Of a DNA stretch of 64,000 nucleotides, positions 55,815 to 64,000 are shown piece after piece. The stretch is from Bordetella genomosp. 4 (GTDB lineage: Bacteria > Pseudomonadota > Gammaproteobacteria > Burkholderiales > Burkholderiaceae_B), in assembly GCF_002261185.1 (NCBI RefSeq), contig NZ_NEVQ01000023.1, forward strand, positions 124,001 through 188,000. The letters run 5' to 3'. The translations under genes were made by a program, and so were the position numbers. Each line of letters begins with the position of its first letter. The stretch's first letter is position 1. A model generated the notes under the pieces. It had not been told where the DNA came from, searched no databases, and saw only the letters and a program-made list of their open reading frames with translations.

Positions 55815-55907
55815 AAAATCTCTCCCTTTTGAGGTTCCACTTTCTGCGTTTCGTTCGTCATGTCTTGGACACCGAAAAATCTGCAACGCAAACAAGGAAC
55901 TCGAACC

Positions 55908-58328
55908 ATGTCCCGACCCGCCCAGCGCCGCAGCGCAGCGCGCCGTCACGCCTCATTGGCTCCCGCACATTTCGGCCTGATCGTACGCTTGGTCTTTTCC
56001 GGCCCTGTGGCGTTTGGGCTGGGCTTTGCCTTGCCCGCCTCTGCCCAGACCGCGGCAAGAACCGTGACGTACAACATCCCCGCAGGGCCGTTGGCTGACG
56101 CGTTGAACCAGTACGCGCAGCAAGCGGGCGTGTCGCTTGCGATGGACGCGCGCCAATTGCGAGGCCTGACATCGCCCGGCCTGCGTGGCAGCCATGGCAT
56201 CGAAGCAGGCTTCAATCTGCTGCTGCGGGGCAGCGGCTACCTCGCCTACAAAACCGAATCCGGCTACGTGCTGCGCCCGGCGCCCGTCTCGTCGCAAAAC
56301 GAGGTGGCCACACTGCCCGCCGTCACTGCCGTGGCCAGTGCGCCATCAACGCAAGGCTATGTCGCGGCACGTAGCGTCGCCGCCACCAAAACCGACACCT
56401 CGCTACTGGAAACACCGCAATCGGCCTCCGTCATCACCCGCGAAGAGTTGGATGACCGCAACGTGCAGACGTTGCTGGAGGCCGTCTCCTACACGCCCGG
56501 TGTACGTACCGAGCAAAGTGGCTTCGACCCGCGATTTGATGTCTTCACCTTGCGCGGCTTCGACGTCACCTACAACGGCATTTACCGAGACGGACTGCGC
56601 CTACCCGGCGCCAACATGTCGGTATTCAAAGTCGAACCCTATAGCGTGGAAAACGTCACCGTGCTGCGCGGTCCCAGCTCGGCGCTCTATGGACTAGGCT
56701 CCCCCGGCGGTTTGGTCGACATCACCTCAAAACGCCCGATCGACGAGCCATTCGGCGAAGTCCAGCTCATGACGGGCAACTACCAGCGCAAACAGGGCCA
56801 ATTCGACATTGGCGGCCGCGCCGACGAAGACGGCCAGTGGCTATATCGACTGACCGGCGTCGTACGCGATGCCGGTTCGCCGAACACCGATGGTGGCGGC
56901 AACAACGACATCACCTCCATCGCCCCGGCATTCACATGGCAACCGAATGGCGACACCAAAGTCACCCTGTTGGGCGAATACCTGAAATCCAGAACGCCTG
57001 CTGCCTTGCCTTATTATGCGTGGGGCGGCGCCCGCTCGGACCTGCCTGGCGCCACCGGCGACTACAACCGCCAGGATCAGGAGCAATTCCGTGTCGGCTA
57101 CCTGGCCGAACACCGCTTCAATGACACCTTTACCGTGCGGCAAAATCTGCGCTATGGCCAGGTCAATACCCACGTCCGCTACAACAGTCTCGGCGAAATC
57201 GATACCGAGGCCAATACCATCAGCCGCTCCACGGGCTATGTACACGACAAACTTAAATCGTTCGTGGTCGACAACCAATTGCAGGCCGACTTCAAAACAG
57301 GGGATGTCGAGCACAAGCTGCTCGTGGGACTGGATTATTCCTATCTCGGCCTGGACGGCGGCATCGGCTACGGCGCGGCCTCCGATCTCGATGCCTCGAC
57401 GCTCGAGCCGCTGGGCCCCACGGAAGACCCACCGACCGACGCCTCGCGCTATCGCCAACGTCAACGTCAGACCGGCCTCTACCTGCAAGAACAGGCCAAA
57501 TTCGACGGCTGGATCGTGACCCTCACCGGGCGTCATGACTGGAGCACCAGCATCGCGGACGATCTGATCGCCGATAGCCGGGAAAAAACCGTCGACCGCA
57601 AATTCACGGGCCGTGCCGGATTGACGCATGTTTTTGATAACGGCATCGCTCCCTATGTCAGCTACTCGACGTCGTTCGCGCCCACTAGCAGCGTCGACGC
57701 CAACGGCCAGACCTTTGACCCCACCACCGCGCGGCAGGTCGAAGCAGGCGTGAAGTACGCGCCGAGCAACATGAACAGCTATGTCGCCGCTTCGGTCTTC
57801 GAACTCAAACAGTCCAACGCGCTGGTCACGGATCCCAATAACCCTCTATTTCAAGTGCAGACAGGGAAGGTACGCAGCCGCGGCATCGAACTGGAGGGCA
57901 TGCTCGACCTGGCCCAGGGACTGAAGGTCCACGGCGCCTATACGTACCTGATGGCCGTCAATATGTCCGGCTCACCGGACACCGACGGGCGCACGCTTTC
58001 CGGCACACCACGGCACACGTTCTCGCTCTGGACCGATTACACATTTCAGTCAGACACAGCACTGGCGGGCCTGGATGTCGGTTTCGGCCTGCGCTATGTC
58101 GGCACCAGTTGGGGCAACGCGACCAATACATTCCAGAACTCAGCGCATTTGCTGGCCGACGCCAAAATCGGCTATGACCTGGGACGCCTATCGCCATCGT
58201 TCAAGGGTTGGAGCGCGCAGGTCAATGCCTTGAATCTCTTTGACAGGGACTACACGACCTGCGACGCAGGCTATTGCTATGAAGGCGCTCCGCGCATGGT
58301 CACGGCCAGCCTGAAATATCGTTGGTAA
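55908..58328 (+). CDS. FecA-like TonB-dependent ferric-siderophore receptor with a signalling domain
   Basis: 806 residues from ATG 55908; ATG 55860 lies in another context and adds a charged tail. A signal peptide with a long basic n-region ends near residue 46 (ASAQT). The secretin/TonB short N-terminal domain follows (YNIPAGPLADALNQYAQQAG). Next come the plug (SASVITREELDDRNVQTL, VTVLRGPSSALYGLGSPGG) and a 22-strand barrel ending in LKYRW. The N-terminal domain and neighbours show it signals to FecR. The siderophore is unknown; the class resembles FhuE, FpvA and FoxA-type receptors. Confidence 0.94.
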   Translation: MSRPAQRRSAARRHASLAPAHFGLIVRLVFSGPVAFGLGFALPASAQTAARTVTYNIPAGPLADALNQYAQQAGVSLAMDARQLRGLTSPGLRGSHGIEAGFNLLLRGSGYLAYKTESGYVLRPAPVSSQNEVATLPAVTAVASAPSTQGYVAARSVAATKTDTSLLETPQSASVITREELDDRNVQTLLEAVSYTPGVRTEQSGFDPRFDVFTLRGFDVTYNGIYRDGLRLPGANMSVFKVEPYSVENVTVLRGPSSALYGLGSPGGLVDITSKRPIDEPFGEVQLMTGNYQRKQGQFDIGGRADEDGQWLYRLTGVVRDAGSPNTDGGGNNDITSIAPAFTWQPNGDTKVTLLGEYLKSRTPAALPYYAWGGARSDLPGATGDYNRQDQEQFRVGYLAEHRFNDTFTVRQNLRYGQVNTHVRYNSLGEIDTEANTISRSTGYVHDKLKSFVVDNQLQADFKTGDVEHKLLVGLDYSYLGLDGGIGYGAASDLDASTLEPLGPTEDPPTDASRYRQRQRQTGLYLQEQAKFDGWIVTLTGRHDWSTSIADDLIADSREKTVDRKFTGRAGLTHVFDNGIAPYVSYSTSFAPTSSVDANGQTFDPTTARQVEAGVKYAPSNMNSYVAASVFELKQSNALVTDPNNPLFQVQTGKVRSRGIELEGMLDLAQGLKVHGAYTYLMAVNMSGSPDTDGRTLSGTPRHTFSLWTDYTFQSDTALAGLDVGFGLRYVGTSWGNATNTFQNSAHLLADAKIGYDLGRLSPSFKGWSAQVNALNLFDRDYTTCDAGYCYEGAPRMVTASLKYRW

Positions 58329-59851: not shown

Positions 59852-61483
59852 TCACGCGCCAGCTTTCGCACTGGCATGAAGAAAATGCGCGCCTCTCTCG
59901 GCGATCATGACCGTGGGCGAATTGGTATTGCCCGACGTGATTGTCGGCATCACCGACGCATCGATGACACGCAAGCCTTGCAAGCCATGTACACGCAACT
60001 CAGGGTCCACCACCGCCAAGGGATCCACACCCATTTTGCATGTCCCTACCGGATGAAAAATCGTGGTGCCGATGTCGCCGGCTGCGCGCGCCAGATCCTC
60101 ATCGGTCTGCAAGGCGTTTCCTGGTTTGTATTCCTCTGGGGCGTAACATGCCAGCGCCTGCTGCGACACAATACGGCGGGTGAGTCGAATACTATCGGCC
60201 GCCACTCGCCGGTCGGCCTCGGTCGATAAATAATTGCACAGGATCTCAGGCGCATCATCTGCTTGCGGGCTCGTGACCCGCACATGGCCACGGCTGGTGG
60301 GCCGCAGATTGCAGACCGAAGCCGTAAATGCCGGAAAAGCATGCAAAGGCTCGCCGAATTTTTCGAGCGACAAGGGCTGCACGTGGTACTGCACATTCGC
60401 GCGCTCTTGTTCAGGACCGGATCGCGCGAATGCGCCCAACTGCGATGGCGCCATGCTGAGCGGCCCGCGCCGTCCAAAGGCATACTGCGCCCCCATCAGC
60501 GCCTTGCCCCATAACGAGCCCACCATGGCATTCAAGGTCTTGGCGCCAGTGACGCGGTAGATCATGCGCAATTGCAAATGGTCTTGCAGGTTTTCGCCTA
60601 CCCCCGGCAGATCGTGCAGCACCGGTATGCCACGTGCCTGCAACCATGCCGCCGGCCCGACACCGGACACCTGCAGCAATTGCGGCGATCCGATCGCACC
60701 TGCGGCCAGGATGACCTCGGCCCGCGCGCGAGCGATTTGTTCGCTGCCGTCGCCCAGACGAAACGTCACACCCTCGGCGCGTCGATTCTGGAACACGATG
60801 CGCGACACGCGCGCGCCCGTCATGACATGCAAATTGGATCGGCTCGCCGCCGGTTTGAGAAAAGCCCTCGCTGCACTCCAGCGCATACCGCGGCGCTGAT
60901 TGACCTCGAAATAGTCGCATCCCTCGTTATCGCCCCGGTTGAAATCGGACACGGACGCGATCCCGGCCTGAGCCGCCGCGGCACGAAACGCATCGAGCAG
61001 ATCCCACGACAAGCGCTGACGCTCGACACGCCATTCACCCCCCGCACCGTGAAAGTCTGACGCCCCGGCATGATGGTCTTCGGTGCGCATGAAAAACGGC
61101 AGCACCTCATCCCATCCCCATCCTGTATTGCCCAACGCCGCCCAACCGTCATAGTCTGCGCGCTGGCCGCGCATATAAATCATGCCGTTGATTGACGAAC
61201 TGCCGCCCAACACGCGGCCACGCGGATAGCCCAGGCTGCGCCCGTTCAGGCCCGGATCGGGATGCGTGCGATAGCACCAATCGGTGCGCGGATTTCCGAT
61301 GCAATACAGATAACCGACCGGAATATGAATCCAATGCCAGTTATCGCGGCCACCGGCTTCCAGCAACAACACGCGCTTGCCTGGATCCGACGACAAACGA
61401 TTGGCCAGCAGACATCCTGCCGACCCTGCGCCCACCACGATGTAATCAAACACCAGATCGGTACTGCCCGTCTCGGCCACCAT
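59852..61483 (-). CDS. GMC-family FAD-dependent oxidoreductase
   Basis: 543 residues. The N-terminal FAD site is DYIVVGAGSAGCLLANRL. GGSSSINGMIYMRG binds the flavin, and the C-terminal HPVGTCKMG and NTNSPTVMIAERGAHFL contain the catalytic His and Asn/His pair. It resembles choline and alcohol dehydrogenases, so it probably oxidises an alcohol or polyol; the substrate is unknown. It lies 57 bp after the DUF6999-like gene and probably shares its transcript. Confidence 0.9.
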   Translation of the reverse strand: MVAETGSTDLVFDYIVVGAGSAGCLLANRLSSDPGKRVLLLEAGGRDNWHWIHIPVGYLYCIGNPRTDWCYRTHPDPGLNGRSLGYPRGRVLGGSSSINGMIYMRGQRADYDGWAALGNTGWGWDEVLPFFMRTEDHHAGASDFHGAGGEWRVERQRLSWDLLDAFRAAAAQAGIASVSDFNRGDNEGCDYFEVNQRRGMRWSAARAFLKPAASRSNLHVMTGARVSRIVFQNRRAEGVTFRLGDGSEQIARARAEVILAAGAIGSPQLLQVSGVGPAAWLQARGIPVLHDLPGVGENLQDHLQLRMIYRVTGAKTLNAMVGSLWGKALMGAQYAFGRRGPLSMAPSQLGAFARSGPEQERANVQYHVQPLSLEKFGEPLHAFPAFTASVCNLRPTSRGHVRVTSPQADDAPEILCNYLSTEADRRVAADSIRLTRRIVSQQALACYAPEEYKPGNALQTDEDLARAAGDIGTTIFHPVGTCKMGVDPLAVVDPELRVHGLQGLRVIDASVMPTITSGNTNSPTVMIAERGAHFLHASAKAGA

Positions 61484-61540
61484 GGGTTTTGTCTCCGTTA
61501 TCTTGTTCGGGTTTCCTTCAGTATGCCAGCACAGCGGATC

Positions 61541-62443
61541 TTATGCTGCCTGCGATGCCGGAAAATCGGCGGCCTCGGCCTCGCTTTTCGCGCGCATCAA
61601 CAGACTGTGCAACATCTCGGTCGACAAGCCGTGCAGCACCAACCGATAGCCAGCACGCAAGGTCGACAACGGCACCAAGGGATGTTTGTTGTTCACCAGA
61701 ATCAAATGCTGCGGCGCGCCCAGGATCTGCGCAGCATAGATCCCGACCGTTTCGTCCAATTGCAACGAATTCGCCGCTCGCCAGAAATCATTGTCGGTCA
61801 ACATCAATTGATATAGCGGCGTGAACAACTCGATCGCGCTTTGCAGATCCAGAAAATTCCGTTTGCGTTGCGGCATGTCTTGCAGCCGCAAACCGGGATC
61901 GCGGATCATCGAAAAATCCACTTTCTCGGGCGCATGCATTTCCACACCCGCCTCGCGCAGTGCGCCATTCAAGCGGATCACAAAGTTGAACAGGTTCAGA
62001 TCGTGTTTGACGAAAAGTTCGTCCTTCAGATCCGCAATACACATGGGCTCCAGCGGCGTGGTCGACACCTGCACCGGCGCATTGCGTGAGATGAACGACA
62101 AGACCTGCGCCCCCAGATGAAAATGCCGCAGGATCAGCCAATTGGCCTCGGGCGACACAAAGTGTTCCAGCCCCCACGCCAAGATCCGGTGCAGCAGTTT
62201 CGAATGTGACCACTTGCGCGGCAGGAACGTCTTGACGACTTGGATCAAGATGATGAACGCACGCGCCAAGGGCCGCAAAAAAGGCAACAAATACTGGCGC
62301 GATCCACAACTGGAATCCGCCAGCCATGCCTCTTTCACAGCATCGGGCAAAGGCGTGCTGCGATCCAGATAGAGCGCCAACCACGGACTTGGATCCGCCG
62401 GATCGTGTTCGCGCGTCAAAAACTCAGGGGTGCGGGAACTCAT
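61541..62443 (-). CDS. DUF6999-like protein of unknown function
   Basis: 300 residues, helical, with one amphipathic or hydrophobic stretch (LARAFIILIQVVKTFLP). Conserved-looking segments are LLHRILAWGLEHFVSPEANW, HFHLGAQVLSFISRN and FTPLYQLMLTDNDFWRAAN. His and Glu/Asp are frequent in these helices, so a metal site is conceivable. I recall a family named DUF6999 with this look, but no known role. It starts 2 bp after the ketosynthase-fusion stop, which argues for a shared function. Confidence 0.65.
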   Translation of the reverse strand: MSSRTPEFLTREHDPADPSPWLALYLDRSTPLPDAVKEAWLADSSCGSRQYLLPFLRPLARAFIILIQVVKTFLPRKWSHSKLLHRILAWGLEHFVSPEANWLILRHFHLGAQVLSFISRNAPVQVSTTPLEPMCIADLKDELFVKHDLNLFNFVIRLNGALREAGVEMHAPEKVDFSMIRDPGLRLQDMPQRKRNFLDLQSAIELFTPLYQLMLTDNDFWRAANSLQLDETVGIYAAQILGAPQHLILVNNKHPLVPLSTLRAGYRLVLHGLSTEMLHSLLMRAKSEAEAADFPASQAA

Positions 62444-62445
62444 GA

Positions 62446-64000
62446 TTATTCGGCCTCCATCACGTGATGGAATTGCATCAGATAGAGCGCCGCTGTGCGG
62501 CGCGCCGTATCCACGATATGGCGCTCGGCCCGGCCGCGATCATCAGCGTCCAGCGCCAACTCCACCGCCATCAGCCAACGCGCCAGATGGTTCTCGTCAT
62601 TGTGCCCGTGATATTCCAGGAAGCGGAATCGATCCGGGGGCAAATCCAGGCTCGCCTTCAAGAGCGGCAATAACGCCGGCACAATGCGTTGGCCTGTGCC
62701 TTCAATGATGTAGATCGCGCCCAGCAGTCCAATTGGATCCTTCGTCGCTGCCAAGGCATGCAGATAGGCGTTCAAGGCCTCGCCGCCGGGATTGCGGCGC
62801 AACGCATCGATGTCGGCGATTGTGCCGCCCGCGTTTCGATAATCCTGGAACAGAATCTGGAAATCGTTCTGTTCCTCGCCTGCATGTACGCCAATCAACT
62901 CCGCCAGGGTCTGATACGTATCAGTGAGCGATGCCGCCCCCTCGCGCATCCACTTGCTGCCTTCGCGCACCTGAGGGATCCACTGCTCCATCCAGTTCAA
63001 ATAATCTGCCGTGACGAAACGGCGCTCGCGCAAACGCCGCACGACAGGCGTACGCCAGACGCGGGAACGGTAGTCGTGCCAGATCGAAGCCAACTCCGTC
63101 AATAGCGGCCCCAGCCCCTGTGGGGCTTGCTCGGGATCGTGCGGCGGCGCAATCGTATCGGCATCATCGCTATGCACCGATGCACTCACGGGCGCCCCCG
63201 GCCGTACCGTCGCGGCAGCCTGACCCGTGGTGGACGACGAGACCGACAACGGCGCATCGACAGCCTCGGCCTCGAACAACATATATGCCGTCATGAACCG
63301 CCCAGACTCCGGGATGTAGCAAAAGACTTGCTGTCCGGGCGTGAGGGTATGCGTTTCAAGGAACTCCGCCAGCATGATCAGAATCGATGCCGCACCGGTG
63401 TTCCCACGCCAGGCCAGGTTGCTGAACCATCGCTCGCGAGGAATCTCCAGCCCCGCTTTTTCCATGAGATCGGCCACGACCGGAATGAATTTCTCTGACG
63501 AGTAGTGACACAGGAAATGGTCCACCCGTTCAGGATTCACCCAGCCGTCACGCACCAGGCTCACATATTCATGAATGCCTATATCGAACAGATGCGGCAA
63601 CAGGCGAATATCCTGACGCAGCGACAATGCGCCAGCTGCCTCGGCGTCGGTCCACGACGCGTAGTCCAAATGCCCCTGGCCGCCCTCGGCAGGCAAGCCC
63701 AGCTGCATGCATACCGGATAGTCGCCGGAAAACGCGCGTTGATGGATCCACTTCAGTCGCAATCGCACCCCCGACGACGCTCCCGGCAATGCGGCGCCGC
63801 TATTGCCCAGCAGCAATGCGCCCGCCCCATCCGACAACATCCAGCGCAGAAAATGCGAATCAAAGTCTGCGTCATAACCTCGCGCAGCAAAGCGCGAGCG
63901 CTTGAACAACCTCGAGGGCATCTCGCTGGCGACCGCTAACGCGCGATGATGCGCGCCCAGCTCAATCCCCTGTGCTGCCGCCTGGATCGCCGACACCCCC
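62446..64000 (-). CDS. Ketosynthase III-like protein fused to a heme-oxygenase-like (HDO) domain, 5' end beyond the window
   Basis: An open frame of at least 517 codons that runs off the right edge; its start is not visible. The GTG near 63996 is not the start, since the frame continues with GV before SAIQAAAQGIELG, a region that in FabH relatives directly follows the catalytic Cys. The ketosynthase part (to about residue 240) has the His (HFLCHYSSEKF) and the Asn (WRGNTGAASILIML). After a linker, residues about 280-516 form a helical heme-oxygenase-like domain with GEEQNDF, IIEGTGQ and HGHNDENH as candidate di-iron ligands. Product and substrate are unknown. Confidence 0.72.
   Translation of the reverse strand, partial: GVSAIQAAAQGIELGAHHRALAVASEMPSRLFKRSRFAARGYDADFDSHFLRWMLSDGAGALLLGNSGAALPGASSGVRLRLKWIHQRAFSGDYPVCMQLGLPAEGGQGHLDYASWTDAEAAGALSLRQDIRLLPHLFDIGIHEYVSLVRDGWVNPERVDHFLCHYSSEKFIPVVADLMEKAGLEIPRERWFSNLAWRGNTGAASILIMLAEFLETHTLTPGQQVFCYIPESGRFMTAYMLFEAEAVDAPLSVSSSTTGQAAATVRPGAPVSASVHSDDADTIAPPHDPEQAPQGLGPLLTELASIWHDYRSRVWRTPVVRRLRERRFVTADYLNWMEQWIPQVREGSKWMREGAASLTDTYQTLAELIGVHAGEEQNDFQILFQDYRNAGGTIADIDALRRNPGGEALNAYLHALAATKDPIGLLGAIYIIEGTGQRIVPALLPLLKASLDLPPDRFRFLEYHGHNDENHLARWLMAVELALDADDRGRAERHIVDTARRTAALYLMQFHHVMEAE

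Follow-up and report, generated by a model that had tools for sequence, protein, structure and literature searches.

We analysed a 64,000-nucleotide stretch of Bordetella genomosp. 4 (contig NZ_NEVQ01000023.1, positions 124,001 to 188,000; hereafter the window), whose right end encodes a fusion of a ketosynthase with a heme-oxygenase-like di-iron oxidase (HDO) domain within what may be a small biosynthetic operon. All genes of the locus lie on the minus strand. In the direction of transcription, they are an FA_hydroxylase (65321-66097; PF04116, E 2.9e-21), an FA_desaturase (64411-65316; PF00487, E 7.5e-21; start set at the ATG after the FA_hydroxylase stop), the ketosynthase-HDO fusion (62446-64000 in the window, 648 aa in total), a DUF6999 protein (61541-62443, 300 aa) and a choline-dehydrogenase-like GMC oxidoreductase (59852-61483, 543 aa; PF00732, E 2.7e-51; PF05199, E 1.1e-36), separated by 4, 18, 2 and 57 bp, respectively. 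Coordinates above 64000 are extrapolated from the right flank of the window (L006). The reading frame of the fusion is open up to the window edge and starts 392 bp further out, at an ATG at 64392. Its ketosynthase domain (63268-64000 for the part in the window) is matched by PF08541 (residues 285-357, E 4.4e-10) and its HDO domain (62446-63165) by PF14518 (residues 513-637, E 1.1e-9; 38.8 bits for a gathering score of 28.9). The DUF6999 protein matches PF22523 over all of the model (positions 1-275 of 275, 438 bits for a gathering score of 27, E 1.4e-131), and its predicted structure is all-helical with no clear match in the PDB. The His-rich motifs of the FA_hydroxylase and of the FA_desaturase are kept (nine sequences aligned for each). 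A preliminary description of the window, made from the sequence alone, had already recognised the fusion, the DUF6999-like and GMC genes and the two gaps between these three genes, all of which hold; the two membrane enzymes were outside its view.

The ketosynthase, which that description had likened to FabH, is closer to the StlD/DarB type: StlD is its nearest relative both by sequence and by model, and NF005293 (StlD/DarB family beta-ketosynthase) matches residues 8-375, with model positions 1-377 of 378 covered (315 bits, E 5.6e-94). The catalytic residues Cys129 (HGICAAG, found just outside the window once the sequence to its right was retrieved), His296 (CHYSS) and Asn331 (GNTG), the last two inside the window, align with those of StlD and are invariant across the 33 relatives aligned. 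PpyS and OleA have the same ketosynthase fold and join two acyl chains. The Glu that lies 24 residues before the Cys, the base E105 of PpyS, is missing in both the window ketosynthase and StlD. The proximity to StlD, the invariant catalytic residues and the lack of this Glu suggest a DarB-type enzyme.

The gene set is conserved. Among the best 80 of 91 stretches encoding a DUF6999 relative (the named loci), 77 have the order FA_hydroxylase, FA_desaturase, ketosynthase-HDO, DUF6999, and a metagenome bin titled Gammaproteobacteria (L086) carries this full four-gene form. The contig of one further locus (L083), 3.3 kb long, is too short to include more than the last two genes. In two Variovorax loci (L074 and L082), the FA_hydroxylase is beside DUF6999 and the FA_desaturase is beside the ketosynthase-HDO on other contigs. 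These two genomes have one DUF6999 match each and carry both gene pairs on separate contigs, so the operon was split in two with all four genes retained. The fusion is present in 78 of the 80 loci with 71-88% identity and is thus not a chance event. Identities to the window for the fusion and DUF6999 together span 71-92%, and the five best named DUF6999 relatives are Bordetella records (87-92%). Both gene ends could be called in 76 loci, and in 46 of these the genes for the fusion and for DUF6999 overlap by 4 bp, stop to start. The preliminary description had proposed a three-gene cluster ending with the GMC oxidoreductase. Its first two members are indeed conserved together, but a GMC gene is near the operon, at around 1.9-2.6 kb from DUF6999, in only 5/80 loci (a lower bound, because several loci have short flanks), and it is therefore probably a local passenger that does not belong to the conserved operon.

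The presence of the two core genes is also correlated across genomes. DUF6999 was found in 16 of 61 related genomes, and the same 16 have a long ketosynthase-HDO match (raw genome counts, shared ancestry included). In G019 this match is split over two frames (G019:C63:119270-121242), which is either a true break or an assembly error. The best match to the fusion in the other 45 genomes is a lone DarB-like ketosynthase in G059 (201 bits), with matches of at most 40 bits or none in the rest. DUF6999 is uncommon at larger scales: of 398 genomes sampled across the phylum, 9 had it (including that of the window), and it was found in 6/289 of the class of G281 and in 2/197 of the order of G421.

The fusion is one of two forms of the association. 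In nine distant loci the ketosynthase, the HDO and DUF6999 are consecutive and in this order, as separate genes or frames: six from another class of the phylum (L113 and L127-L131), two from another order of the class of the window (L114 and L132), and a named Pseudoalteromonas plasmid (L111). The genomes of the six are probably alphaproteobacteria, since the Caulobacter control matched as well. No match to the FA_hydroxylase or FA_desaturase was found within the stretches of these nine loci. In a wider sample, six loci (L115-L120) have the fused form, and five of them have both membrane genes. In the ketosynthase tree, the eight fused ketosynthases make one clade (support 100/100), which suggests a single fusion event. 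Directly before the three genes, L111 and L114 encode a membrane-type protein of 185-188 aa with a conserved His/Glu pattern (L111:14436-14993 and L114:10441-11007); it had no Pfam match, and no relation to the FA_hydroxylase was found. In L113, a 1133-aa Aas-like protein with MFS, acyltransferase and AMP-ligase parts is encoded directly after DUF6999 (L113:3697-7098). The shared presence in genomes, the constant gene order, the completeness of the split loci, the gene overlaps and the adjacencies in distant genomes all point to components of one pathway. DUF6999, the third component inherited with them, has a conserved polar core and may be another enzyme or a partner that presents lipids.

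The HDO domain has an unusual putative metal site. Sequence alignments and motifs indicate eight candidate ligands, numbered here within the domain (whole-protein numbers are higher by 409): E68, H94, E98, D101, E155, H186, D190 and H193. Seven of these positions are invariant across 14 diverse operon HDOs; the remaining one, position 68, has a Glu in 12 of them and an Asp in the other two. The Glu of helix alpha2 and the Hx3[D/E]x2H motif of helix alpha3 are also invariant in 33 fused proteins, with the motifs present in 78/78 fused. The PF14518 match, the alpha2 Glu and the alpha3 Hx3Dx2H pattern are shared with the HDOs UndA, AetD, MboA and SznF; E155 and H186-x3-D190-x2-H193 thus have their counterparts in E140 and Hx3Ex2H of AetD. 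The difference is in helix alpha1, where these enzymes have a carboxylate and then a His and the operon HDOs have H94-x3-E98-x2-D101 (codons at 62863-62886, minus strand), a motif also present in nine further loci checked. According to the available text of the sources, the alpha1 ligands are D76 and H79 in AetD (PMC11611611), whose H72 was observed near a stray metal (PMC10654658), and E86 and H89 in MboA, where Tyr82 is a possible base (PMC13185094). Three closer relatives from outside the operon have Y-x3-E-x2-H in an ungapped alignment with the H-x3-E-x2-D of the operon HDOs. More broadly, 21 of 22 non-operon PF14518 proteins have E…H: 15 could be aligned, and each of them has the Glu followed by the His here, in some cases with an insert, and of the other seven, six show it at a different spacing and one is degenerate. 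The PF14518 protein in the L179 match region has a degenerate helix-1 motif (NQ instead of NH). In effect, the His and the carboxylate of helix alpha1 have been swapped in the operon HDOs. In the accessible parts of the 2026 HDO review (PMC13108848), sites are mostly 3H/3C, with around 25% 3H/4C and one mononuclear exception, and no layout like H-x3-E-x2-D is found. The same parts differ from our loci in having no partnership with a fused or adjacent ketosynthase, a word with no occurrence in the main text, and their multi-domain example, SznF, combines the HDO with a cupin instead and N-oxygenates an arginine derivative.

The comparison with dialkylresorcinol loci suggests what the HDO might do. 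DarA, the usual partner of DarB, is a flavodoxin-like protein. In G059, the DarB-type ketosynthase follows a DarA-like protein of 329 aa, beside further ketosynthase-type genes (L147:3222-5334); by its position, this protein is a putative DarA. The neighbour of the ketosynthase of a Streptomyces plasmid is 32% identical to it, and the cluster on that plasmid (L112:7703-15349) encodes the DarB-type ketosynthase, the DarA-like neighbour, an FAD monooxygenase, a P450 and two acyl carrier proteins. None of the 23 genomes with a ketosynthase-HDO had a match to the DarA-like protein of G059, in a search that a very divergent DarA would escape and in which G059 itself, the 24th genome searched, did match. 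The presence of a DarA-like protein beside DarB-type ketosynthases in these two cases, and the lack of a match to it in the ketosynthase-HDO genomes, suggest that the HDO may take the place of DarA. In the available part of PMC3949708, darA and darB of Azoarcus are annotated as DAR-aromatase and DAR-cyclase. Our operon resembles the DarA/DarB and StlD systems in having an StlD/DarB-type ketosynthase with conserved Cys, His and Asn. It differs from DarA/DarB in the partners, which are the HDO and DUF6999, plus the two membrane enzymes in one lineage, and neither an acyl carrier protein nor an acyl-activating enzyme was recognised among its genes.

We tentatively propose, with a confidence that falls somewhat short of even, that this is a small lipid-type biosynthetic operon in which a DarB-type condensation is followed by a di-iron oxidation of the product in the place of DarA. 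Judging by its family, the ketosynthase would join two intermediates of fatty acid synthesis, most simply the beta-ketoacyl and enoyl thioesters that such enzymes use, to give a 2,5-dialkylcyclohexane-1,3-dione or its carboxylate. The HDO, fused or neighbouring, would then oxidise the condensed product with O2 at its di-metal site, supplying the oxidative step done by DarA in dialkylresorcinol pathways. In the lineage of the window, the FA_hydroxylase and FA_desaturase could afterwards act on the chains within the membrane, and the product would probably be a ring-containing membrane lipid. The preliminary interpretation, of an acyl condensation followed by di-iron and flavoenzyme oxidation, was thus partly right: its first two steps are kept in conditional form, the GMC step is dropped given the scarcity of this gene near the operon, two genes are added, the ketosynthase type is corrected and the HDO site turns out to be unusual. 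A more specific version, which we consider possible but rather unlikely, is that the HDO has a di-metal site of a new layout, in which the alpha1 H-x3-E-x2-D would give 2H/4C or 3H/4C, and that it aromatises or hydroxylates a dialkylcyclohexanedione received from the fused ketosynthase, with DUF6999 taking part as an enzyme of unseen fold.

Several observations weigh against a DarB-type condensation completed by the HDO. The ketosynthase is below the cut-offs of both NCBIfam models, NF005293 (315 vs 450 bits) and NF053539 (DarB dialkylresorcinol synthase; 251 vs 550), so it may not have kept the ring-forming reaction. The NF005293 scores of the unfused ketosynthases of L111 (372) and L113 (322) and of that of the Streptomyces plasmid (382) are below the cut-off as well; the ketosynthase of G059, beside its DarA-like gene, is above it (593) but also below the cut-off of NF053539 (468). 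The DarA-like protein of G059 itself matched no Pfam or NCBIfam model. The ketosynthases partnered with an HDO are not resolved into one supported clade, and the membrane enzyme pair is not invariably retained: beside its fused ketosynthase-HDO, L116 has a desaturase match of only 36%, broken into two pieces (L116:10479-11335), and lacks a match to the hydroxylase. Finally, helix alpha1 has an Asp in the place of the His and a new His four residues before the Glu in 14/14 aligned and 78/78 fused HDOs, which could mean a different metal or a different chemistry. This last change would also fit an HDO that has lost or altered its metal chemistry and serves the ketosynthase as a non-oxidising partner (a lyase, a dehydratase-like or a binding domain), and some relatives with the heme-oxygenase fold do work without a metal (PMC13108848, introduction, as available). 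Yet E155, H186-x3-D190-x2-H193 and the new H94 and D101 are equally invariant, as would suit a metal site that has been remodelled more than one that has decayed, and we hold this to be the least likely of the explanations considered.

If the HDO does oxidise, it might do so in the manner of UndA, an HDO with fatty acids as substrates (PMC13108848, available part). The ketosynthase would then make a beta-ketoacyl product or transfer an acyl group, and the HDO would cleave a C-C bond at the carboxyl end of one chain to leave an alkene, ketone or similar hydrocarbon modified by the membrane enzymes. That the partner genes encode fatty-acid enzymes is consistent with this scenario, but we find it unlikely because the ketosynthase is nearer to StlD, which joins two acyl units, than to FabH, and because the alpha1 ligands are unlike those of the compared HDOs. 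Slightly less likely again is that no ring is made and that the operon supplies the membrane with modified fatty acids or with chains condensed head to head, as an adaptation of the membrane and not a secreted metabolite. The strong conservation of the fusion and DUF6999, the membrane location of the desaturase and hydroxylase, and the Aas-like neighbour of DUF6999 in a distant genome all agree with such a role. However, this neighbour is found in only one of the 16 loci compared, and the ketosynthase lacks the Glu at the position of the PpyS base. The proposal of a DarB-type condensation followed by HDO oxidation remains the one we prefer.

The gene set is real and, as far as we found, functionally undescribed: searches of the open-licence literature for an HDO with a ketosynthase, for DarB with the database name of the HDO and for the gene set listed no functional study of it, and a search for DUF6999 gave no paper. 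Related loci may nevertheless have been flagged under another name. In the available parts of the sources, antiSMASH reports a "resorcinol" region with the core gene DarB, a 3-oxoacyl-ACP synthase III, in Achromobacter mucicolens, and "resorcinol" regions in two Variovorax strains. The former may well be the present operon; the latter may be the same or true darAB loci. If the proposed reading is right, some "resorcinol" loci of Achromobacter and Variovorax would yield another product, or the same product by another route. Were the new-layout di-metal site confirmed in the proposed role, it would imply an undescribed class of lipids in Bordetella, Achromobacter, Variovorax and other proteobacteria, and another way of completing a DarB-type condensation. 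The 2026 review counts around a dozen validated HDOs (section 4 of PMC13108848, as available). The chemistry of HDOs is hard to predict, and fusion and co-inheritance with a condensing enzyme provide a testable guess of the substrate. The system is compact and expressible, with three to four genes, and gives a first handle on DUF6999.

Beyond the GMC oxidoreductase, the window encodes a putative Na+/H+ antiporter (PF07399; 58356-59648, minus strand). The antiporter and a DapA-like neighbour are each near the operon in 30 of the 80 named loci, which probably reflects ordinary synteny. Further left, on the plus strand, the window encodes a TonB-dependent receptor with an STN-like start (55860-58328).

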